From positions 1 to 64,000 of the forward strand of contig NZ_JAMXMB010000010.1 of assembly GCF_024055635.1 (NCBI RefSeq): a stretch of 64,000 bases of DNA, given 5' to 3'. Of the stretch, positions 4,291-58,782 are shown one piece after another (position 1 is the stretch's first letter; every line of letters begins with the position of its first letter). Position numbers and translations under genes: made by a program. The stretch comes from Microbacterium yannicii. Lineage in GTDB: Bacteria; Actinomycetota; Actinomycetes; Actinomycetales; Microbacteriaceae. Below the pieces are notes generated by a model. It saw only the letters and a program-made list of their open reading frames with translations, had not been told where the DNA came from and did no database searches.

Positions 4291-5212
4291 CGACAAGCCC
4301 GCCGCCGAGATCGCGATCGACAGCGGCCTGGTCCGCGCGCTGCTGGTGGCCCAAGCCCTCGATGACATCCCCGATGCGGCGGACCTCCCACTCGTGAAGA
4401 TCGCCGAGGGCTGGGACAGCGAAGTGTGGCGCCTGGGGCACGCCCATGCCGTGCGCCTGCCCCGCCGTGCGCTGGCCGCGCCGCTCGTCCGGCACGAGCA
4501 GGCCGTGCTGCCAGGCGTGGCCGAGCAACTCGCGCCGACCGGAGTGCGTGTCCCGTTGCCCGTCGTCGACGGCGTCCCCGCTGCGGGCTATCCATGGCCG
4601 TGGTCGGTCGTGCCGTGGATGGAAGGCGAACGCGCCATGGATGAGTCACGCGCCGCACGCGGATCATGGGCGCCGACGCTCGCCCGCGCGCTCGACGCGC
4701 TCCACGTCGACGCGCCTGAGGAGTATCCGATGAACCCGTTCCGCGGTGTCCCACTGGCGGGGCGTTCCGAGGCGATCGCGGAACGATTCGACGCCCTCCG
4801 CGCGGCAGGCACGCTGGACGCGGAAGCCGCCACCGCATTCGAGGACGTCTGGCGCCGGGGCCTCGAGGCCGCCCCGTGGGACCGGCCACCGGTCTGGATC
4901 CACGGCGACCTGCACCCCGGAAACCTCGTCTCGCACGAGGGTCGACTGGTGGGCATCATCGACTTCGGCGACGTGACCGCCGGCGATCCGGCGTACGACC
5001 TCGCGGTCGCGTGGCTCGCGTTCGACGGCGCCGGCCGGTCCCGATTCATCGCCGCGGCCGGCTCGCACTACGACGCCGCCGTCTGGATCCGCGCCCATGC
5101 GTGGGCCGCCGCGGTGGCTGCCATGCTCCTCGCCCACAGCGACGACAACCCGGACTACTTCGCGCTGGGACGGGATGCCGCGACCGAGGTGCTGGCAGAC
5201 GCCGCAGGCTGA
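4286..5212 (+). CDS. Aminoglycoside phosphotransferase-family kinase
   Basis: This is a soluble small-molecule kinase of the APH/choline-kinase fold, about 308 residues long. HGDLHPGN (His206, Asp208, Asn213) is the catalytic loop with Asp208 as the base. IIDFGDV has the metal-binding Asp226. The helix-C glutamate is probably Glu71 in RHEQAVL. The substrate cannot be told from sequence; drug resistance is only one possibility and many such genes phosphorylate metabolites. The GTG at 4286 is the more downstream of two duplicated leaderless starts, the other being 4265. Longer in-frame starts at 4163 and 4232 would run through the fruR control region and are unlikely. Confidence 0.85.
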   Translation: MPDKPAAEIAIDSGLVRALLVAQALDDIPDAADLPLVKIAEGWDSEVWRLGHAHAVRLPRRALAAPLVRHEQAVLPGVAEQLAPTGVRVPLPVVDGVPAAGYPWPWSVVPWMEGERAMDESRAARGSWAPTLARALDALHVDAPEEYPMNPFRGVPLAGRSEAIAERFDALRAAGTLDAEAATAFEDVWRRGLEAAPWDRPPVWIHGDLHPGNLVSHEGRLVGIIDFGDVTAGDPAYDLAVAWLAFDGAGRSRFIAAAGSHYDAAVWIRAHAWAAAVAAMLLAHSDDNPDYFALGRDAATEVLADAAG

Positions 5213-5310
5213 GGCATCCGCCCGGATCACTGCCTGACGGCCACTCCGCGCAACCGGGACGGCGGCCGGTGCGGGGCATCCAGCGGCCGAGCGGACAAAG
5301 CCTTCAGAGA

Positions 5311-5346
5311 AACGAAAAACCCCCGCTCAGCGGGGGTTTTCTCGTT
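5311..5346. terminator. Bidirectional rho-independent terminator
   Basis: A stem AAAACCCCCG / CGGGGGTTTT with loop CTCAG is flanked by AACGA and TCGTT. It has a T-run in both directions. It can end the phosphotransferase transcript on the plus strand and the tRNA-Gln transcript on the minus strand. Confidence 0.85.
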
Positions 5347-5420
5347 GGCTGGGGTACCTGGACTCGAACCAAGAACAACGGTACCAGAAACCGCCGTGTT
5401 GCCAATTACACCATACCCCA
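5346..5420 (-). tRNA. tRNA-Gln (anticodon CTG)
   Basis: On the minus strand the sequence folds as a standard cloverleaf. The acceptor TGGGGTA pairs with TACCCCA. The anticodon loop TTCTGGT carries CTG. GGTTCGAGTCC is the T-arm. A G discriminator and encoded CCA occupy the 3' end. It lies 69 bp upstream of the stop of gltX, which is on the same strand. Confidence 0.96.
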
Positions 5421-5489: not shown

Positions 5490-7019
5490 TCAGCCGCGCG
5501 CGTCGGCCAAGGCGCGCAACCTGCGGATCGACTCGGGCTTGCCGAGCAGCTCCATCGACTCGAACAGCGGCGGCGAGATGCGGCGTCCGCTCAGCGCGAG
5601 GCGCAGCGGGCCGTACGCGACGCGCGGCTTCAGACCGAGGCCGCCGTCCTCGATCGGCGAGATGAGGGCGACGGCGAGGGCGTCCTGCACGGCTGCGGCG
5701 GTGAAGTCGCTGTCGGGCACCCGCTCGAGTGCGCCGACCGACGCGACGAGCACCTCGTTCGCGTTCACCGGCAGGGATGCGAAAGCGTCCTCCTGGTAGC
5801 TCCCGACATCGGTGAACAGGAAGCCCAGCAGCGCGGGCGCTTCGCCCAGCAGCTGCATCCGCTCCTGAACGAGCGGAGCGGCCGCCGCGAGCATCGCCGC
5901 CTGCGTCGGGGTGGGGTTCGCGTCGATCAGGCCGGCGGCGGAGAGGTAGGGGACCAGGCGCTCGGCGAAGTCCGCGGGCTCCAGCATCCGGATGTGGTCG
6001 CCGTTGATCGACTCCGCCTTCTTCTGGTCGAACCGGGCCGGGTTCGGGTTGACATCGACGATGTCGAACGCGGCGATGAGCTCCTCGAGCGAGAAGACGT
6101 CGCGGTCCGGTGCGATCGACCAGCCGAGCAGGGCGAGATAGTTGAGCAGCCCCTCGTGGATGAAGCCCTTCTCACGCTGCAGGAACAGGTCAGCTTTCGG
6201 ATCGCGCTTCGAGAGCTTCTTGTTCCCCTCCTCGCCCAGCACGAGAGGCATGTGCGCGAAGCGCGGGATGAACGTCGTGATGCCGGCATCCACGAGTGCC
6301 CCGTACAGCGCGAGCTGGCGCGCCGTCGACGGCATGAGATCTTCGCCACGGATGACGTGCGTGATGCCCATCAGCGCATCGTCGACGGGGTTCACGAAGG
6401 GGTACAGCGGCACTCCCCCGGCCCGCACCAGCACGAAGTCTGGGAACGATCCGGCCGGGAACGTCACTTCGCCGCGGATGAGGTCGACATAGGTGAGGTC
6501 CTCATCGGGGACGCGCAGACGCCAGGCCGGCTCACGCCCCTCTGCGCGGAACGCGGCCTTCTGCTCGTCGGTGAGGCCGCGGTCGTGATTGTCGTAGCCG
6601 AGCTGCTTCGCGCGGCCGTTGGCCTCGTTGCGCGCGTCGATCTCTTCGGCCGTCGAGTAGCTCTCGTACACGGCCCCCGCGGCGATGAGGCGGTCGAGCA
6701 CCTCGCGGTAGATGTCGTGGCGCTCGGACTGCCGGTACGGCGCGTGAGGCCCGCCCACCTCGACGCCCTCGTCCCAGTCGATCTTCAACCACCGCAGCGC
6801 GTCCAGGAGCTGCAGGTAGCTCTCCTCGCTGTCGCGGGCGGAGTCGGTGTCTTCGATCCGGAACACCAGCTTGCCGCCGTTGTGACGCGCGTAGGCCCAG
6901 TTGAACAGGACGGTGCGGATCAGACCGACGTGCGGCAGTCCGGTGGGCGACGGGCAGAAGCGGACGCGGACGTCGGCGCCGGTGGCGGTCGTGGTGCGGG
7001 GATCAGGCGAAGAAGGCAT
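5490..7019 (-). CDS. gltX: Glutamyl-tRNA synthetase
   Basis: This class I aminoacyl-tRNA synthetase charges tRNA-Glu. In most actinobacteria it also mischarges tRNA-Gln for amidation by GatCAB. The length of 509 residues is normal. The HIGH-type motif is [11 protein letters not shown] (about 22-32) and the KMSKS-type motif is KKLSKR (about 267-272). The RIEDTD segment (54-59) is characteristic. There is no clear Shine-Dalgarno site; a TAAACT box eight bases before the ATG suggests a leaderless transcript. The gene starts 11 bp after the stop of the LysR gene on the same strand. Confidence 0.97.
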
Positions 7020-7030
7020 CGGGTGAGAGT

Positions 7031-8035
7031 TTAGTCAGCAGCAGCCGCGCCCGTCGGTGCCGCGGGACGAGCGGATGCCGCGGAAGCGTGCTCGTCGGCG
7101 CCGCGCTCGATGAGACGCCCCAGGGCGTCGAGCGTCGCGCGTACCGCGGGCACGCGATCGGCACCTCGAGCCGTCACGGTGTGGATGCGCCGCTGCTCGC
7201 CGGCCGGCAGAGGCACGATCGCGACACCGGGAAGGAGCGGGAACGACTCGACAGCCATCCTGGGCAGCGTCGCCACGCCGATGCCCTGGGCGACCAGGCC
7301 CTCGACGGCAACGAAGTTGTCCGTCTCGAACGCGATGCGCGGCGAGAAGCCGGCGCGATCGCACAGCTCGAGCAGGTGACCGCGGCAGCGAGGACATCCC
7401 GCGATCCAGTCTTCGTCGGCGAGCATGCCGACGTCGAGGGCGGCCGGGCCCGCCGCAGGATGGCCGGTGGGCAGGACGGCGAGCAGCTCGTCCGCGCCGA
7501 CGGTGTGCACCGAGAGCCCGCGCGCGCTGGAACCGTGCGGGTCGTCCCGATCGCCCGGGTAGCTGAACGTGAGGGCGATGTCGGTGCGATCCTCGCGCAC
7601 CGCCTCGACGGCTTCCGGCGGCTCGGCCTCGACGTACGTGAGAGAGATCCCCGGATGCCGCTGCGCGAGGTCCGCCAGCAGGCGCGGCACGATCGTGGGC
7701 GACGCGGACGGGAAGGCGACCAGCCGCACGCGTGCGGCGCGGAGGCCGCGCAGCTCGGCGAGCTCGCCGGCCGCTGCATCCAGCGCCGTGGTCACTGCCG
7801 GTGCGTGCCGCGCGAGGATCCGTCCCGCATCGGTGAGCCGGACGCTGCGTCCGACCCGCTCGACGATGGCGATCCCGAGGCGCTGCTCGAGACGCTTGAG
7901 CTGCTGGCTGACGGCCGGCTGGCTGTAGCCCAGCGTGAGGGCCGCGCCGGTGATCGACCCGGCGTCGGCGACGGCCTTCACGACCCGCAGCTCGCGGGCG
8001 TCGAAGCCGGGATCGTCCTCGAAGACGTCGGTCAT
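7031..8035 (-). CDS. LysR-family transcriptional regulator
   Basis: An N-terminal LysR helix-turn-helix contains [20 protein letters not shown] and is followed by a LysR substrate-binding domain, about 334 residues in total. It is divergent from the class V aminotransferase-fold gene at 8117, the classic arrangement for a LysR regulator and its target. The ATG at 8035 was preferred to longer in-frame starts because TATGAT lies exactly six bases before it, as in other leaderless genes of the window. A palindrome with T-N11-A geometry overlaps that box. The effector is unknown. Confidence 0.87.
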
Positions 8036-8041
8036 GACCAA

Positions 8042-8060
8042 ATCATAATCTCGAGTTATG
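8042..8060. promoter_or_regulatory. LysR operator overlapping its own -10 box
   Basis: CATAA-N7-TTATG at 8044-8060 is an inverted repeat containing the T-N11-A pattern typical of LysR sites. The minus-strand TATGAT box (8042-8047), six bases before the LysR ATG, overlaps it. This arrangement fits autorepression and activation of the divergent gene. Confidence 0.55.
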
Positions 8061-8116
8061 TTTCTCATGGAACACCGGCCGTAGACGCAGGGAATCGTCG
8101 CCGTCACGCTGGTGGC

Positions 8117-9181
8117 ATGCCCACGATCGCCCACTCGGCCGCGCTCGACGCCGCACGACGCGAGTTCGCCGGCCGCGACTACCTCGCCGCCTGCACGGTC
8201 GGCCTGCCCAGCCGGGCGACCCGCCGCGCCGTGATCGCCGACCTCGATGCCGCCGGAGCCGGTCGCCCGGACCTCGCCGCCTACTGCGCCGCCGTCGAGC
8301 GTTCGCGAGGACTGTTCGCGTCACTGGTCGCCGTCGGCGCGGACCGCGTGGCGATCGGCTCGCAGACCTCCGTCGCTGCCGGGATGGTGGCATCGGCTCT
8401 CCCCCACGGCGCCGAGGTGCTCGTCCCCGACGGCGAGTTCTCGTCGATGGTGCTGCCCTTCGTGCACTCCGGCCGCGATCTCGTCGTGCGGACGGCTCCC
8501 CTTCACGACCTCGCCGCGCACGTGCGGCCCAGCACGGCGCTCGTCGCGTTCTCGGTGGTCCAGTCGGCCACGGGTGAGGTGGCGGATGCCGCGGCCATCG
8601 TCGCGGCCGCTGCCGCGCACGACGCCCTCACGCTGTGCGACGCGACCCAGGCCGTCGGATGGCTGCCGGTCGAGGCATCCGCTTTCGATGCCGTGGTGTG
8701 TCATGCCTACAAATGGCTCTGCGCGCCGCGAGGGGTGTCGTTCCTGACCGTCTCGGACCGGCTCGCCGCACGGATGACCCCCGTCAACGCCGGATGGTAC
8801 GCGGGCGAGGATCCGTGGGCGTCCTGCTACGGCGGCGAGGTGGACCTCGCCCCCGACGCGCGGCGGTTCGACGTGTCGCCCGCGTGGCAGGCGTTCGTCG
8901 GGGCGGCGCCCGCGCTGGCGCTGTTCGCCGCGCTCGATCCGGGGGAACTCCATGCGCACGCGACGGGCCTCGCCGCCGCGTTCCGCGCCGGGCTCGGCAT
9001 CGCCGAGCCGGAGCGCGCGTCGGCGATCGTCGCCTGGGACGACCCGGAGGGGTGCGACCTCGGCCGGCTGATGTCTGCGGGCATCACTGCGTCCGGACGG
9101 TCAGGGCGCGCCCGCGTCGCGTTCCACGTCTTCAACGACGAGGACGACGTCGACCTGGCTCTCGCCGCGCTCGGTCACTGA
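8117..9181 (+). CDS. Aminotransferase class V-fold PLP enzyme
   Basis: This is a pyridoxal-phosphate enzyme of the cysteine-desulfurase/kynureninase superfamily, 354 residues long and probably cytosolic. The Schiff-base lysine is probably Lys199 in CHAYKWLCAPRG. Asp175 in TLCDATQAVG should contact the pyridine nitrogen. The C-terminal GRARVAFHVFN is typical of SufS-like and related enzymes. No suf or isc genes are adjacent, so a role in Fe-S assembly is not indicated. It is transcribed divergently from a LysR regulator, its probable controller. The exact reaction is unknown. Confidence 0.82.
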   Translation: MPTIAHSAALDAARREFAGRDYLAACTVGLPSRATRRAVIADLDAAGAGRPDLAAYCAAVERSRGLFASLVAVGADRVAIGSQTSVAAGMVASALPHGAEVLVPDGEFSSMVLPFVHSGRDLVVRTAPLHDLAAHVRPSTALVAFSVVQSATGEVADAAAIVAAAAAHDALTLCDATQAVGWLPVEASAFDAVVCHAYKWLCAPRGVSFLTVSDRLAARMTPVNAGWYAGEDPWASCYGGEVDLAPDARRFDVSPAWQAFVGAAPALALFAALDPGELHAHATGLAAAFRAGLGIAEPERASAIVAWDDPEGCDLGRLMSAGITASGRSGRARVAFHVFNDEDDVDLALAALGH

Positions 9182-53438: not shown

Positions 53439-53501
53439 GTGAACCGACGAGGCATTCCCCGGATCCCGCGCGACGATGCCGTCGCCGCGAGTGCGACATG
53501 A
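53439..53501 (+). CDS. Possible 20-residue leader peptide
   Basis: A GTG preceded by GAGAGG opens a 20-codon frame (VNRRGIPRIPRDDAVAASAT). Its TGA overlaps the ATG of the next gene. It could be a coupled leader or chance. In the rest of 53261-53497 there is a hairpin GCCGGGAA-CGCA-TTCCCGGC at 53326-53345 and nothing else recognised. Confidence 0.3.
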   Translation: MNRRGIPRIPRDDAVAASAT

Positions 53502-53818
53502 GCACCACCGGCGGCGCGACTCGCCGCATCGAGCTGACCCTGCACAAGCCGTGGTTCGCCCTCTACGCCCGCATCAAGCCGACCCTCGTGATCGCCGGTC
53601 GCGGCCAGCCGGCCCAGTGGGGCCTCGGCACCTGGCAGGTCCCGGCGGACGAGACCGTCGTCGTCGGAGTGTTCCTGTTCAACCGACTGTGGCGCTTCGG
53701 CCACGCCGAGTTCGCGCTCGAGCCGACGCATCCGCCCGCACTGCGGTACACGGCTCCGGCGCTGCCGTTCGGCCGCGGCCGGGTCCGCCTGAGCACTCCG
53801 GCGGGTGCAGTGCGCTGA
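53498..53818 (+). CDS. Hypothetical protein of 106 residues
   Basis: No known domain was recognised. The sequence is mostly beta-like with conserved-looking aromatic and charged positions (LTLHKPWFALYARIKPTLVIAG and FNRLWRFGHAEFAL, read in parts). No signal peptide or membrane helix is clear. Its ATG overlaps the stop of a possible short leader frame. A strong bidirectional terminator follows, separating it from the convergent NmrA-like gene. Confidence 0.6.
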   Translation: MSTTGGATRRIELTLHKPWFALYARIKPTLVIAGRGQPAQWGLGTWQVPADETVVVGVFLFNRLWRFGHAEFALEPTHPPALRYTAPALPFGRGRVRLSTPAGAVR

Positions 53819-53875: not shown

Positions 53876-54634
53876 TCAGTCGCGCGGCGGGTTCGCCGGC
53901 AGCCACTCGTCCAGCGTCGTGGCGAACACCTGCACACCGTCGACCGGCATGAGGGTGCGCTCCTGCATGCGTGCGCCGAAGTAGGGGGCCTCGGGGTCGG
54001 TCACGACCTCGCGCGGGTCGCCGCGGAACGCCAGGCCACGGCGGACCAGCTCGTCGAGTCCCATGACCTCCGGGCCGGCGATCTCGACGTCGGCGTTCAG
54101 AGGTGCGCCGGCAGCGGTGCGCGCGACGGCCGTCGCGACATCCTCCGCGGCGATCGGCTGCATGAGGTTGTTCGGCAGGTGGATGCCGTCACCGTTGCCC
54201 GACACGGTGGCGATGCCGCCGATGAACTCGAAGAACTGGGTGGCATGCACGAGCGAGTAGGGAATCCCCGACGCGCGGATGAGCTTCTCCTGCGCCGCCT
54301 TGGCCGCGAAGTAGTCGATGTCGTTGGGACGGTCGGTCCCGACGATCGTGAGGGCCACGTAGTGCCCGACGCCCGCCTCACGCGAAGCCGCCACGAGGTT
54401 GTTCGTGGAGGTGGTGAAGAACTCCATCACGTCGTCGGGTGCGAACGACGGCGAGTTCGACACGTCGACCACGACGTCCGCGCCCTGCAGCACCTCGGCG
54501 AGACCCTCGCCGGTGATCGTGTTGACGCCCGAGTTCGGCGACGCCGGTACGGCCTCGTGCCCGTGCTCGGTGAGCTTCGCGACGACCTTCGAGCCGATCA
54601 GTCCCGAGCCGCCGATGACGACGATCTTTGCCAT
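53876..54634 (-). CDS. NAD(P)-binding NmrA-like epimerase/reductase, copy 1
   Basis: The protein has 252 residues. The Rossmann motif VVIGGSGLIGSKVV is at the N-terminus. HATQFFEFIGGI and PIAAEDVATAVAR are typical of atypical SDR/NmrA proteins. It is a clear paralogue of the protein at 56068-56865. ECF41 sigma factors are known to sit beside epimerase or oxidoreductase genes. Here an ECF41-like promoter (TGTCACA-N16-TGTC) lies 54-80 bases before the ATG. It is separated from the sigma operon by that promoter. The substrate is unknown. Confidence 0.87.
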   Translation of the reverse strand: MAKIVVIGGSGLIGSKVVAKLTEHGHEAVPASPNSGVNTITGEGLAEVLQGADVVVDVSNSPSFAPDDVMEFFTTSTNNLVAASREAGVGHYVALTIVGTDRPNDIDYFAAKAAQEKLIRASGIPYSLVHATQFFEFIGGIATVSGNGDGIHLPNNLMQPIAAEDVATAVARTAAGAPLNADVEIAGPEVMGLDELVRRGLAFRGDPREVVTDPEAPYFGARMQERTLMPVDGVQVFATTLDEWLPANPPRD

Positions 54635-54687
54635 GATGTGCCTTTCGTTCGAAGAGCGCGGGGAAGAGGTGTGCGCTCATCAGCTAG

Positions 54688-54714
54688 GACAGGGCGGTCG
54701 CTCGATCTGTGACA
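54688..54714 (-). promoter_or_regulatory. ECF41-like promoter for the copy 1 NmrA gene
   Basis: Read on the minus strand, TGTCACA (54714-54708), a 16-base spacer and TGTC (54691-54688) match the ECF41 consensus TGTCACA / CGTC (remembered from the literature). It lies just after the SnoaL gene stop. Confidence 0.65.
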
Positions 54715-54720
54715 GCCGCG

Positions 54721-55140
54721 TCACTCCGCGTGCCAGCGCGTCAGTTTGCCCGGATTCACCACGAGCCACGCCTGCACGATGAGCCGGCCGCGCACACGCA
54801 TACCCAGGACGCCTGTGACCTCACCGTGTCGGCAGACGACGAGCCCCGGCATCCCGTTCACCGAAGCGATGCGCACCGACACCTCGGAGTCGAGCAGCAC
54901 GCCGGACAGGTACCGCGTGACCTCCTGCGCACCGCGGAGCGCAGCCGATGGCGCGGCCACGATGCCGCCTCCATCGACCGTCAGCTCGACGCTCGGGTGC
55001 ATCAATCCCCCCAGCTGCCCCGGGTCGCCGCTCTCGACGGCGGCGGCGAGCGCGCGCGCGACGCCCTCGTGCTGCACGGCGCTCGTCCTCGAACCCCGCG
55101 GAAAGACGTGCAGCCACGACGCGCGACGTCGTCTGGTCAC
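54721..55140 (-). CDS. Stand-alone SnoaL-like domain related to ECF41 sigma C-terminus
   Basis: The protein has 139 residues. It lacks sigma regions 2 and 4 but resembles the C-terminal extension of ECF41 factors. DGGGIV is at 56-61 and VVNPGKL at 127-133, both at the places where ECF41 proteins carry DGGGK and NPDKL. The first 20 residues are Arg-rich. The GTG start overlaps the sigma-factor stop (GTGA), so it is made together with it. It may act in trans on the sigma factor, or be the remnant of a second sigma gene. Confidence 0.7.
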   Translation of the reverse strand: MTRRRRASWLHVFPRGSRTSAVQHEGVARALAAAVESGDPGQLGGLMHPSVELTVDGGGIVAAPSAALRGAQEVTRYLSGVLLDSEVSVRIASVNGMPGLVVCRHGEVTGVLGMRVRGRLIVQAWLVVNPGKLTRWHAE

Positions 55141-56045
55141 GCCCCGACCGGGGCGACGTGCCCGAGCTTGTCGGGGCTCATCACCCAGTGGATCTGACGG
55201 ATGCCGTCCTCCGACGCGGTGATCATCGCCACCGTGGTGACGACCCCGTCCTCGGAGAGCGTCGCCGCGGGCTGTCCGTTGAGCTCGACCCAGTCGATGG
55301 TCTTGCCGATCCAGAAGTGGCTCGAGAAGGCTGCGACGAACTTCGCGACCCGGCTGCGGCCGGCCACGGGGATGCGGGCCGCCAGCTTGACGCCGTTGCC
55401 GTCGGTCGTGCTCACGACGTCTTCTGCGAACAGCCGCTCGAGGCCCGTCACGTCGCCCTGCTGCGCGGCGACGAGGAACGCCTCGAGCAGGCGTCGCTGC
55501 TCGGCGGCCGCGACCTCCGCCCGGCGAGCGGACGCGAGGTGCTTCCGGGCACGGCTGACGAGCTGACGCGCGCTCGCGACAGTGGCACCGATGACGTCGG
55601 CGATGCGCTCATAGGGGTAGTCGAGCGCTTCTCGCAGGATGTACGCGGCGCGTTCGGTCGGCGTGAGCTTCTCGAGCACGAGCAGGATCGCGAACTGCAG
55701 CGCTTCTCCGCGTTCGGCGCCGAGCGCAGGATCGTCGTCGGTGTTGACCGGTTCCGGCAGCCACGGCCCGATGTACGTCTCACGACGCGCGTGCGCGGAC
55801 TGTGTCGCATTGATGGAGAGCCGCGTCGCGACGGTCGCGAGGAACGCCGCAGGCTCGCGGATGTCGGCGCGATCGGCGTTCTGCCAGCGGATCCAGGTCT
55901 CCTGGACGATGTCTTCGGCGTCGGCCACCGTGCCGAGCATCCGATACGCGATGCCGAAGATCCGGCGGCGGTGCTGGTCGAAGACAGCCACCGCCTGCAC
56001 GATGTCGTCGACCTGCTGTTCCGTCCCGGACGCTTGCTCGGTCAT
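55137..56045 (-). CDS. ECF41-type RNA polymerase sigma factor (SigJ-like)
   Basis: The protein has 302 residues. Sigma region 2 lies at about 22-90 (FGIAYRMLGTVADAEDIVQETWIRW). A linker includes YIGPWLPEPV at 91-100. Region 4 is at about 128-172 (PTERAAYILREAL, YERIADVIG, ARQLVSRARKHL). A SnoaL-like C-terminal domain (about 182-302) has DGNGVK at 215-220 and SPDKL at 290-294. In ECF41 factors this extension controls activity in place of an anti-sigma factor. It follows the copy 2 NmrA gene by 22 bp. Three matching promoters lie in this locus. Confidence 0.9.
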   Translation of the reverse strand: MTEQASGTEQQVDDIVQAVAVFDQHRRRIFGIAYRMLGTVADAEDIVQETWIRWQNADRADIREPAAFLATVATRLSINATQSAHARRETYIGPWLPEPVNTDDDPALGAERGEALQFAILLVLEKLTPTERAAYILREALDYPYERIADVIGATVASARQLVSRARKHLASARRAEVAAAEQRRLLEAFLVAAQQGDVTGLERLFAEDVVSTTDGNGVKLAARIPVAGRSRVAKFVAAFSSHFWIGKTIDWVELNGQPAATLSEDGVVTTVAMITASEDGIRQIHWVMSPDKLGHVAPVGA

Positions 56046-56067
56046 GCCGCCGCTCCTCTCGCCGCGC

Positions 56068-56865
56068 TCAGCGTACGCCCGCGGCGACCGGCAGCAAGAG
56101 GTCGTCCCGCCTCCCGCTCGCCGCCACCTGCCAGTCGTGGAAGCGGGTGGGCGCGATCGCCGCGTCGTTGCCGGGCAGCAGCTCCCAGCGATCGAGCTGC
56201 GCACCGAAGTAGGTCGCGAGCGGGTCTGCGACCACCTCTCGCTCGTCACGACGGAACCGCAGCTCACGCTGGGCGAGATAGCCGAGCTCGAACACCTCCG
56301 GGCCGGCGTGCTCCGCGACCTCGCCGGTCGGCCGAGCAAGGGCGGCGCGTGCCACCGCCGCGGCGACATCGTCGGCGGCCATCGGCTGGATGAGTGCGTC
56401 GGCGACATGTGCGATCCCACTGCGGGTCGCGGCATCCGTGATGCTGCGGATGAATTCGAAGAACTGCGTCGCGTGCACGATCGAGAACGGGCGACCGGAT
56501 GCCGCCAGCAGACGTTCCTGCTCCGCCTTGGCCCGGAAGTATCCCCCCTCCGAACGCGCGAGGCGGTCGGTGCCGACGACCGACAGCACGACATGGTGGC
56601 GGACGCCGGCTGCGGCGCCGTAGGTGAGCAGATTGAGGGTCGAGCCGGAGAAGAACTCGCGAGCGCCTTCCTCATCGGTGTACGACGAGTTGGAGACGTC
56701 GACGATGGTCTCGGCTCCGGCGAGCGCGTCCGCGAGGCCCTCGCCCGTGAAGGAGTTCACGCCGGCAGCTCTCGCGACGACGACGACATCGTGCCCGGTC
56801 GCCTGCAGTCGGGCCACCACTCGTGAGCCGATCAGCCCTGTTCCCCCGATGACAGCGATCCTCAT
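56068..56865 (-). CDS. NAD(P)-binding NmrA-like epimerase/reductase, copy 2
   Basis: The protein has 265 residues with the Rossmann motif AVIGGTGLIGSRVV. HATQFFEFIRSI and PMAADDVAAAVAR are shared with the paralogue at 53876-54634. It is the first gene of the operon NmrA-sigma-SnoaL and has its own ECF41-like promoter 52-78 bases upstream. It is divergent from an alpha/beta hydrolase that also carries such a promoter. The open frame runs further upstream but the ATG at 56865 begins the family fold. Confidence 0.87.
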   Translation of the reverse strand: MRIAVIGGTGLIGSRVVARLQATGHDVVVVARAAGVNSFTGEGLADALAGAETIVDVSNSSYTDEEGAREFFSGSTLNLLTYGAAAGVRHHVVLSVVGTDRLARSEGGYFRAKAEQERLLAASGRPFSIVHATQFFEFIRSITDAATRSGIAHVADALIQPMAADDVAAAVARAALARPTGEVAEHAGPEVFELGYLAQRELRFRRDEREVVADPLATYFGAQLDRWELLPGNDAAIAPTRFHDWQVAASGRRDDLLLPVAAGVR

Positions 56866-56916
56866 GTCGAACCCTCTCTGTTCATCGCGCGCGGGAACGC
56901 GCACGTTCACAGCTGA

Positions 56917-56943
56917 GACCGGATGCCACGGCCAGTTGTGACA
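56917..56943 (-). promoter_or_regulatory. ECF41-like promoter for NmrA copy 2 and sigma operon
   Basis: On the minus strand TGTCACA (56943-56937), 16 bases, then GGTC (56920-56917). This implies autoregulation of the sigma operon. Confidence 0.68.
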
Positions 56944-56976
56944 GGTCTGCTGTGTTTCGCCGGATTTCGGTTCCGC

Positions 56977-57003
56977 GGTCACAACCACGGACGGCGGTTG
57001 GTC
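56977..57003 (+). promoter_or_regulatory. ECF41-like promoter for the divergent hydrolase
   Basis: GGTCACA (56977-56983), 16 bases, then GGTC (57000-57003). It differs from the consensus -35 only in its first base. It lies back to back with the promoter at 56917-56943. Confidence 0.55.
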
Positions 57004-57045
57004 TTCGCTGACAACACCGCACGTCCACCCTCGAAAGGAACAGAC

Positions 57046-57786
57046 ATGTCCGAGCAGAAGCCCACCATCGTCCTCGTCCACGGCGCGTTCGCCGAGTCCT
57101 CGTCGTGGAACGGCGTCATCGCCCAGCTGCAGCAGCACGAGGTCACCGCGGTCGCGGTCGCCAACCCGCTCCGCAGCCTGGCCGGCGACGCCGCCTACGT
57201 GCGCGATGTCATGGCGTCGATCGAGGGCCCGATCATCCTCGTCGGCCACTCGTACGGCGGACTCGTCATCAGCGAGGCGGCCGCGGACAATGACGCCGTC
57301 GTCGGCCTCGTCTACGCCGGGGCATTCGTGCCCGAGACCGGTCAGAGTGCGTTCGACCTGTCGGGCAGCGCGCCCGGCAGCACGCTGGGTGACGCCCTCG
57401 CCGCGTACCCGGTGTCGAGCGGAGGCGACGAGTTCGTCATCCGTCCGGAGCTCTTCCATCACCAGTTCGCGGCCGACGTCTCCGCGGAGGTTGCCGCTCT
57501 GATGGCTGCCACGCAGCGCCCGGTCACCCAGGCCGCACTGACGGAGGGCCTGCCCACCGAGCGCCCGGCCTGGCGCGACATCCCCTCGTGGCACGTCTTC
57601 GGCGAGAAGGACCTCAACATCCCCGTCGCCGTGCACCGCGCCGGTGCCGAGCGCGCGGCATCGAGGGGCACACACGAGATCGCCGGCGCGTCGCACGCGA
57701 TCTCGGTGTCGGAGCCGGCTGCGGTCGCTGGGACGATCGCCGAGGCGGCCAAGGCCTACGTCGCGAGCCTCGTCGCGGCAGCGTGA
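57046..57786 (+). CDS. Alpha/beta hydrolase, probable ECF41 regulon member
   Basis: This cytosolic serine hydrolase has 246 residues. The nucleophile is Ser69 in LVGHSYGGLV. The start IVLVHGAFAESSSW is typical of the AB_hydrolase_6/MenH-like group. A histidine in GASHAISVSEP completes the triad. AAAGGA lies six bases before the ATG. An ECF41-like promoter is 43-69 bases upstream, so it probably belongs to the same response as the two NmrA-like proteins. Such hydrolases are often found with reductases in detoxification; the substrate is unknown. Confidence 0.88.
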   Translation: MSEQKPTIVLVHGAFAESSSWNGVIAQLQQHEVTAVAVANPLRSLAGDAAYVRDVMASIEGPIILVGHSYGGLVISEAAADNDAVVGLVYAGAFVPETGQSAFDLSGSAPGSTLGDALAAYPVSSGGDEFVIRPELFHHQFAADVSAEVAALMAATQRPVTQAALTEGLPTERPAWRDIPSWHVFGEKDLNIPVAVHRAGAERAASRGTHEIAGASHAISVSEPAAVAGTIAEAAKAYVASLVAAA

Positions 57787-57849: not shown

Positions 57850-58782
57850 ATGCTCACCTCATTCCGCACTCCCCTCCGAACCGTCGACGCCGGCGAGCTC
57901 AGCGTCGGCTACATCGACGCCGGTGATCCCTCCGCCGAGCCGGTGGTACTGCTCCACGGTTTCCCGTACGACATCCACAGCTACGTGGACGTCGTGCCGC
58001 TGCTGACGGACGCCGGCTACCGGGTGCTCGTCCCCTTTCTCCGCGGGCACGGTCCGACGTCGTTCCGCGAGGCGCGCACCATCCGCTCCGGCCAGCAGGC
58101 GGCGCTCGGGTCCGACCTGCTCGCCTTCATCGGCGCGCTCGATCTGGAGCAGCCGATCCTCGCCGGCTACGACTGGGGCGCCCGTGCCGCCTGCGTCGTC
58201 GCCGCGCTCTGGCCCGAGCGTGTGGCAGGGCTGGTGTCGGTCAACGGCTACCTGATCCAAGACATCTCGACAGCCGGCATCCCGCTCCCGCCCGGTCTCG
58301 AAGCCGGGTTCTGGTACTTCTGGTACTTCGCGACCGAGCGCGGCCGCGCGGGCCTCTCACAGGACCCGAAGGGGATCGCCGACGTCATCTGGCGCCGCAA
58401 CTCCCCCGCCTGGACTTTCGACGACGCCGACCTGGCCCGCGCCGCCGCAGCGTTCGACAATCCCGACTATGTCGACGTGGTCATCCACTCGTACCGTCAC
58501 CGGCTCGGTCTCGAACCCGGGGCACCTCAGCATGTCGACCTGGAGCGTCGCCTCGCCGCGTTGCCGCCGATCACGGTGCCCACCATCACGCTCGACGGCA
58601 CCGCCGACGGCAACTTCCCCGCAACGGACGGCACGCAGCACGACCGGTTCTTCACCGGCCCGCGCAGGCATCGGCAGATCCCGGGGGCGGGACACCATTT
58701 GCCCGCCGAAGCACCGCACGCATTCGCCGAAGCGGTCCTCGACGTCGCCGAGCCGCCCGGCGACGGCGCCGGAACCCCCTGA
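57850..58782 (+). CDS. Alpha/beta hydrolase of the epoxide hydrolase/haloalkane dehalogenase type
   Basis: The protein has 310 residues. The nucleophile position holds Asp108 in AGYDWGARAA, the mark of epoxide hydrolases and dehalogenases rather than esterases. LLHGFPYDIHSY carries the HGxP-type oxyanion motif, and GAGHHLPAEAP supplies the histidine. GAGAGG lies upstream of the ATG at 57850. It lies 63 bp after the ECF41-linked hydrolase on the same strand and may be cotranscribed. A role in removing reactive epoxides or halides is inferred. Confidence 0.85.
   Translation: MLTSFRTPLRTVDAGELSVGYIDAGDPSAEPVVLLHGFPYDIHSYVDVVPLLTDAGYRVLVPFLRGHGPTSFREARTIRSGQQAALGSDLLAFIGALDLEQPILAGYDWGARAACVVAALWPERVAGLVSVNGYLIQDISTAGIPLPPGLEAGFWYFWYFATERGRAGLSQDPKGIADVIWRRNSPAWTFDDADLARAAAAFDNPDYVDVVIHSYRHRLGLEPGAPQHVDLERRLAALPPITVPTITLDGTADGNFPATDGTQHDRFFTGPRRHRQIPGAGHHLPAEAPHAFAEAVLDVAEPPGDGAGTP

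Follow-up and report, generated by a model that had tools for sequence, protein, structure and literature searches.

Organization of the locus

The 64,000-nucleotide stretch analysed here (the window; positions 1 to 64,000 of contig NZ_JAMXMB010000010.1, RefSeq assembly GCF_024055635.1, Microbacterium yannicii) carries a compact locus around the gene for an ECF41 sigma factor, which is directly followed by a small gene that appears to encode a free-standing SnoaL-like domain of the kind otherwise fused to the C-terminus of these sigma factors (the free SnoaL gene). Two genes for NmrA-like NAD(P)-binding proteins, 49% identical to each other, and two genes for alpha/beta hydrolases lie around this pair, together with three ECF41-type promoter sites (Table). 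The two hydrolase genes are probably cotranscribed, and ABH2 follows ABH1 also in several relatives. Site P1 begins six bases past the stop codon of the free SnoaL gene.

Table. Genes and ECF41-type promoter sites of the locus (positions in the window)
Feature	Position	Strand	Profile match or sequence	Remark
NmrA-like NAD(P)-binding protein, copy 1	53876-54634	minus	PF13460 4.9e-11, PF05368 2.7e-10	
P1	54688-54714	minus	TGTCACA-N16-TGTC	before NmrA copy 1
Free-standing ECF41/SigJ-type C-terminal SnoaL-like domain	54721-55140	minus	SigJ profile NF007214, TIGR02957	
ECF41 sigma factor	55137-56045	minus	TIGR02957 8.2e-102; sigma2 and sigma4 Pfam matches	
NmrA-like NAD(P)-binding protein, copy 2	56068-56865	minus	PF13460 6.1e-08	first gene of the sigma operon
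P2	56917-56943	minus	TGTCACA-N16-GGTC	before the operon NmrA copy 2 - sigma - free SnoaL
P3	56977-57003	plus	GGTCACA-N16-GGTC	before the alpha/beta hydrolases
Alpha/beta hydrolase ABH1	57046-57786	plus	PF12697 2.9e-22	
Alpha/beta hydrolase ABH2	57850-58782	plus	PF00561 5.4e-19	alternative start 57805 possible

As judged from its sequence, the sigma factor of the window belongs to ECF41. It scored over the curated cut-offs of TIGR02957 (340.2 bits, cut-off 323.25) and of NF007214 (291.4 bits, cut-off 271), both the sigma2 and the sigma4 region were present (PF04542 and PF08281), and the family profiles matched through the C-terminal end, where the SnoaL-type extension of ~100 residues typical of the group is located. 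SigJ (5xe7) aligned to residues 19-247. The linker between sigma2 and sigma4 contains WLPEP, and the fused domain contains DGNG and SPDKL, which agrees at four of five positions with NPDKL, a conserved feature of the ECF41 extension that the literature passages dealing with it do not state as the criterion of the group. A neighbour of the type expected for ECF41 with its own ECF41 promoter is present in the form of the NmrA genes, with the -10 box variants TGTC and GGTC. A structure model of the sigma factor was too poor to be used (predicted local distance difference test score, pLDDT, 54.1).

We searched for the sigma gene in 295 genomes of the genus and obtained a match with E <= 1e-65 in 63. 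The clade set used throughout comprises 60 loci, the window among them, in which the sigma gene has 65% identity or more (544.5 kb in total); these loci share ancestry, and counts among them are not independent. WLPEP was kept in 59 of the 60. The sigma orthologue of L076 (G188) is broken into two frames, by a frameshift or a sequencing error, and the free gene behind it is open. Next to the locus, on the plus strand of the window (53498-53818), lies an open reading frame (ORF) of 106 residues that is 81-86% identical in four relatives and showed no match in Pfam or NCBIfam.

The free SnoaL gene behind the sigma factor gene

The free SnoaL gene was not mentioned in the preliminary description of this DNA. 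It starts with a GTG that overlaps the sigma stop codon by four bases, and because of this overlap the two genes are probably translationally coupled. Its product matched positions 164-290 of the 293 positions of the SigJ profile NF007214 (1.2e-19) and positions 159-279 of the 281 positions of TIGR02957. The NCBIfam profiles it selected were those of SigJ, SigX4 and SigI, with the last ~125 positions covered in SigJ and SigX4, and its sequence match in the PDB was SigJ (E 4.4e-05). No sigma2 or sigma4 match was found in the protein, in which just the C-terminal domain is present, and Pfam and NCBIfam matches at E <= 0.001 included no known anti-sigma domain. A structure model built from 18 sequences reached a pLDDT of 85.6, and its first three Foldseek hits were SigJ 5xe7 (two chains, E 2.1e-07) and SigG1 7qh5, both SnoaL-fused ECF sigma factors. 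With VIA-align the model gave Z 13.3 to 7qh5 (root mean square deviation 2.8, 118 aligned) and Z 11.3 to 5xe7 (root mean square deviation 3.8, 127 aligned). The latter value is tied with ketosteroid isomerases (Z ~11) and other NTF2-like proteins, and it is therefore sequence, more than fold, that marks the protein as an ECF41 domain. Taken together, the free gene looks like a detached ECF41/SigJ-type C-terminal regulatory domain.

In 56 of the 60 clade loci the sigma gene is followed by a match to the free-domain profile, which starts between -3 and 217 bases from the sigma stop codon. All 60 sigma genes end in a stop of the form [A/G/T]TGA, which permits the four-base overlap, vs 6 of 25 among the remaining ECF41 genes of the fetched loci. 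At L156 (G102; 4486-5415, plus) the sigma gene has a free domain gene about 1.2 kb away on the other strand, possibly after a rearrangement. In L071 (G199; ~6989-8182, reverse) no stop codon closes the free SnoaL frame, which continues through P1 into the frame of NmrA copy 1, possibly as a natural fusion or by loss of the stop codon.

The free gene is under purifying selection, with a ratio of nonsynonymous to synonymous substitution rates (dN/dS) of 0.20-0.45 in 11 pairs, which overlap in ancestry; the corresponding values were 0.04-0.33 in the sigma core and 0.07-0.20 in the fused domain. Ten columns were invariant among 18 copies with 32-75% identity to that of the window, including D56, G58, N95, W125, N129, P130, K132, L133 and W136. 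These residues correspond to D and G of DGGG, N of VNG, N, P, K and L of NPxKL, and W, all of which also occur in ECF41 C-terminal domains.

As described in PMC7730460, ECF41 is held in a compact form by the contact that NPDKL makes with the WLPEP linker. In the fused domain of the clade this position reads SPxKL in 52 loci, APxKL in 6 and TPxKL in 1, with no motif in 1 and NPxKL in none (n=60), and DGNG is found in 57. The free protein has NPxKL in 48 of 56 copies by a count limited to the domain. Among the 25 other ECF41 genes, 20 have NPxKL and 22 have DGGG; a free gene lies right behind the sigma gene in L075 of this group and 871 bp on in L159. A general rule by which the free domain would keep NPDKL and the fused domain would lose it was rejected on loci of other Microbacteriaceae, which we return to below.

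How the free domain came about was addressed with two trees. A recent copy of the domain of the neighbouring sigma factor was rejected as its source, with only 25% identity and placement in separate parts of both trees. In a tree of 143 domains the free protein grouped with degenerate-core proteins, mostly from Streptomyces, and with the second of two tandem ECF41 genes (tandem second genes) found in other Microbacteriaceae (66 rows, support 96/83). Another tree, to which further free forms had been added, again joined it to these tandem second genes (39 rows, 98/91), did not resolve the Streptomyces branch (84/74) and placed free forms from Kribbella and Acrocarpospora elsewhere; both domain alignments have few columns and some long branches. 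Because of this separate placement, stripped forms probably arose more than once. Bit scores of the sigma core were mostly 110-350 in proper ECF41, 87-101 in the tandem second genes and 18-68 in the degenerate Streptomyces proteins, and there was none in the Microbacterium free forms. All 26 degenerate or weak-core proteins (mostly Streptomyces; their alignment covered 12) have NPDKL or NPEKL, and since 22 of them lost WLPEP, which is kept in 4, the motif there stands without an intact partner on the same chain. The simplest reading of these sequences would be that a second ECF41 gene lost the promoter-binding half and kept the regulatory domain. In L300, L301 and L302 the second gene of a tandem ECF41 pair encodes a core as divergent as that range of 87-101 bits, WLPEP and a free-like C-terminal domain, and such genes are possible intermediates.

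We had also considered pairing of sigma factor and partner as a general trait of one ECF41 subclade (78 of 89 rows vs 3 of 58 outside, in a quick tree with support by the Shimodaira-Hasegawa-like approximate likelihood ratio test, SH-aLRT, only). This tie was discarded as a sampling bias, since it was by way of the partner that loci from outside the genus had entered the set. A search that started from the sigma factor in 394 genomes of the class led to 48 fetched loci outside the genus, 10 of them with a partner of this type no more than 1.5 kb away, which was free in 5 and had a degenerate core in 5. Pairing is thus close to fixation in the Microbacterium clade and sporadic beyond it.

Promoter sites in the window, the genus and the genome

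The three sites that had been proposed as ECF41 promoters in the window are exact matches at the listed positions and strands, each with a 16-base spacer. The distance of 43-80 bases to a start codon given for them fits only if some were counted from the -35 box; from the -10 box it is 53 bases to NmrA copy 1, 51 to NmrA copy 2 and 42 to the hydrolase. TGTCACA-N16-NGTC occurred twice in the window vs 0.08 expected, and two or more matches were seen in 0 of 100 shuffles. A search of the window with one mismatch gave 7 matches vs 8.91 expected, that is, no enrichment. Because the enrichment vanishes with one mismatch, it is the exact matches that count as evidence, together with the way they cluster and are conserved.

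This conservation was clear in the clade set, in which NGTCACA-N16-NGTC occurred at 161 sites and the reversed pattern at none; other spacers from 12 to 21, searched singly in the 60 loci, gave 1-11 sites each. The last five bases read CGGTC in 123 and CTGTC in 23 of the 161 sites (146/161), and the -10 box in the clade is C[G/T]GTC. In the consensus TGTCACA/CGTC cited with the sites, the -10 box is to be replaced by this form. A pair of conserved boxes whose spacing stays constant while the sequence between them varies looks like a promoter. In the ECF41 loci of the lowest identity band a different -10 box was seen, with 11 GGTGTC sites in 14 rows (one locus counted twice).

Neighbouring genes were counted by tblastn at 1e-20 within the fetched flanks of ~3-7 kb, so some counts are lower bounds. 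An orthologue of NmrA copy 1 was found in 58 of 60 loci, in 53 with a site at most 200 bp upstream, and NmrA copy 2 in 33, in 29 with a site. ABH1 occurred in 21 loci, 10 of them with a site within 200 bp, and ABH2 in 15, of which 2 had a site. The regulon suggested in the preliminary description is borne out in part, as an ECF41 sigma factor with three conserved ECF41-type promoters at its own locus; its hydrolase part is optional (21/60 loci), and the detoxification or modification response proposed for it is conjectural. As such it is locus-sized and mostly known in kind.

A scan of the whole genome (4.44 Mb in 42 contigs), proposed with the sites as a check, returned 17 exact KGTCACA-N17-GTC matches vs 3 for the reversed control. 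Genes around the sites were called with a rough codon-usage caller, which missed NmrA copy 2 in the window. Among the 11 sites outside ECF41 loci, 8 fell inside called genes. Intergenic sites before genes, beyond the three of the window, numbered two on contig 3 and one each on contigs 5, 4 and 26; the one on contig 4 lies 112 bp before a gene and the one on contig 26 lies 169 bp before a small ORF. The contig 3 sites (L083) stand back to back as TGTCACA-N16-CGTC in a divergent NmrA/ECF41-like pair, in whose sigma factor the motif check detected neither WLPEP nor NPxKL. On contig 5 (L005, 41927-41953) a TGTCACA-N16-TGTC site lies 30 bp before a gene similar to cytochrome b of the cytochrome bc1 complex, possibly an extra target or a chance match. 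A further site, on contig 31, is ~670 bp upstream of a third ECF41 gene and was placed by the caller inside an opposite ORF. When GTCACA-N15-CKGTC was scanned in 6 genomes, the two extra sites of the M. yannicii genome were both inside called genes.

A possible trans-acting domain and its relation to known systems

The sequences show the promoter motifs with their conservation and, for the free gene, homology, linkage, the overlap context and purifying selection. We infer that the sigma factor would drive P2, by which its own operon would be autoregulated, as well as P1 before NmrA copy 1 and P3 before the divergent hydrolase pair. The free SnoaL protein, made in step with the sigma factor, would act in trans on it, either by docking its NPxKL end on the WLPEP linker between sigma2 and sigma4, which is also the docking site of the fused domain in ordinary ECF41 proteins, or by pairing with the fused domain, and the activity of the sigma factor might be gated by a ligand in the NTF2-type pocket of the free protein. 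Inhibition would be the more likely sign of the effect than activation. This reading of the locus as a self-contained ECF41 regulon, with a free SnoaL protein that most likely acts in trans on the sigma factor, seems to us about evenly poised. We put forward more tentatively, and with somewhat greater doubt than belief, that in apparently more than one actinobacterial lineage a second ECF41 has been worn down to its regulatory domain and now serves as a dissociable controller of the adjacent intact ECF41. The same tentative reading would make such a free domain the first trans-acting protein partner for ECF41.

Several observations weigh against these proposals. No free gene stands behind the sigma gene in L117, L147, L149 and L156, and copies are weak or broken in L152, L153 and L157. 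The overlap-type stop codon alone proves little, because the four loci without a free gene show it too. The free domain evolves much faster than the sigma core, and outside the genus pairing is a minority (10/48). The free copy of the window itself reads NPGKL, the motif contrast in the clade is one evolutionary event without independent repeats, and in other Microbacteriaceae (L290-L298) 7 of 9 loci with sigma factor and free gene are reversed, with NPxKL on the sigma factor and [S/A]PxKL on the free protein. Finally, ECF41 loses its activity when the fused domain is removed completely (PMC3426412), so that a domain of this kind may help and not inhibit. In favour of the proposals, partial truncation raises the activity, ~20-fold for the B. 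licheniformis factor and ~120-fold for that of R. sphaeroides (PMC3426412), and because of these opposite outcomes the fused domain restrains as well as supports the sigma factor.

The free protein might instead be a target enzyme of an ordinary ECF41 regulon, of ketosteroid-isomerase or SnoaL type and with no regulatory role. Many proteins of these two types are enzymes, and domains of this kind often pair. The structural comparison leaves room for this explanation, since NTF2-like folds include many enzymes and the model scored about as well against ketosteroid isomerases as against SigJ, and the free gene shares an operon with target genes. Its invariant residues, however, are those of ECF41 C-terminal domains, NCBIfam assigns it to SigJ, SigX4 and SigI and not to enzymes, and its Streptomyces relatives still carry relics of a sigma core, so that we consider an enzyme unlikely.

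The sign of the effect could also be the opposite, with the free protein activating or stabilising the sigma factor in trans as a chaperone or co-sigma factor standing in for a fused domain that has weakened. Both the activity of ECF41 and its binding to RNA polymerase depend on part of the extension (PMC3426412), and the fused domain of the clade has altered motifs, which would fit such a role; the hyperactivity after partial truncation favours a mainly inhibitory one (PMC3426412), and four of the 60 loci keep the sigma gene without a free gene behind it. We regard activation as improbable. Least probable of all would be a decaying relic without function. Fast evolution, the absences and broken copies listed above and the lost stop in L071 would suit a relic, but a gene that is found behind 56 of 60 sigma genes, with the dN/dS of 0.20-0.45 quoted above and ten invariant columns in 18 copies, and whose stripped forms apparently arose more than once, is hardly expected to be one.

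In the view of Wecke 2012, ECF41 sigma factors presumably sense their signal with no second protein involved, and the fused domain does the work (PMC3426412). If a trans-acting free SnoaL protein is what the locus encodes, this natural split of sigma factor and domain would allow the domain to be added, removed and mutated in trans, and the model in which NPDKL docks onto WLPEP could be tested directly, as could the question of the ligand. It would also suggest a route to new regulators in which a duplicated sigma factor loses its promoter-binding half and goes over from sigma factor to controller of sigma factors.

Much of the locus resembles what has been described. Like Ecf41Bli, Ecf41Rsp and SigJ of M. 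tuberculosis (5xe7), the sigma factor consists of sigma2, a WLPEP linker, sigma4 and a SnoaL-like extension. Wecke 2012 reported TGTCACA-N16-CGTC before carboxymuconolactone decarboxylase, oxidoreductase or epimerase/NmrA (COE) genes next to ECF41, commonly in the order COE-ECF with one promoter, and found no wider regulon in the two species tested (PMC3426412). An ECF41 gene beside NmrA is thus a known arrangement, into which P2 before NmrA copy 2 and the sigma gene fits (PMC3426412), and the TGTCACA-N16 promoter, the NmrA/epimerase neighbour and the gene order are shared with known ECF41 loci. Unlike these, the present locus has three promoters, the -10 box C[G/T]GTC, DGNG and SPDKL in the fused domain, and an extra free SnoaL gene. 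Three promoters, two NmrA genes and an optional hydrolase at one locus are a modest extension of what is known, and the new element is the detached regulatory domain. Within the literature searched (titles, openings of abstracts and passages), to which this novelty is limited, we recognised no description of a free-standing SnoaL partner of ECF41. Wecke 2012 presumes that ECF41 does without a separate protein in the role of anti-sigma factor, and no obvious anti-sigma gene was found nearby in that study (PMC3426412).

Small additional genes beside SnoaL-fused sigma factors have been described in other forms. Hypothetical genes with a cupin fold lie beside four ECF41 genes, as a small extra gene in a presumed ECF41 operon, and were likened in Wecke 2012 to the C-terminal domain of the anti-sigma factor ChrR (PMC3426412); unlike the free SnoaL gene, these neighbours have a cupin fold and not the ECF41 domain itself (PMC3426412). 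In the ECF56 system SigG1-RsfG of Streptomyces tsukubaensis, the SnoaL-fused sigma factor likewise has a small partner that is encoded downstream and cotranscribed with it (PMC7730460). In contrast to the proteins studied here, RsfG, which we compared by description only, is reported without a conserved Pfam domain, and SigG1 without NPDKL (PMC7730460). RsfG binds SigG1 (PMC7730460) and provides a precedent for a second protein that acts on a SnoaL-fused ECF sigma factor.

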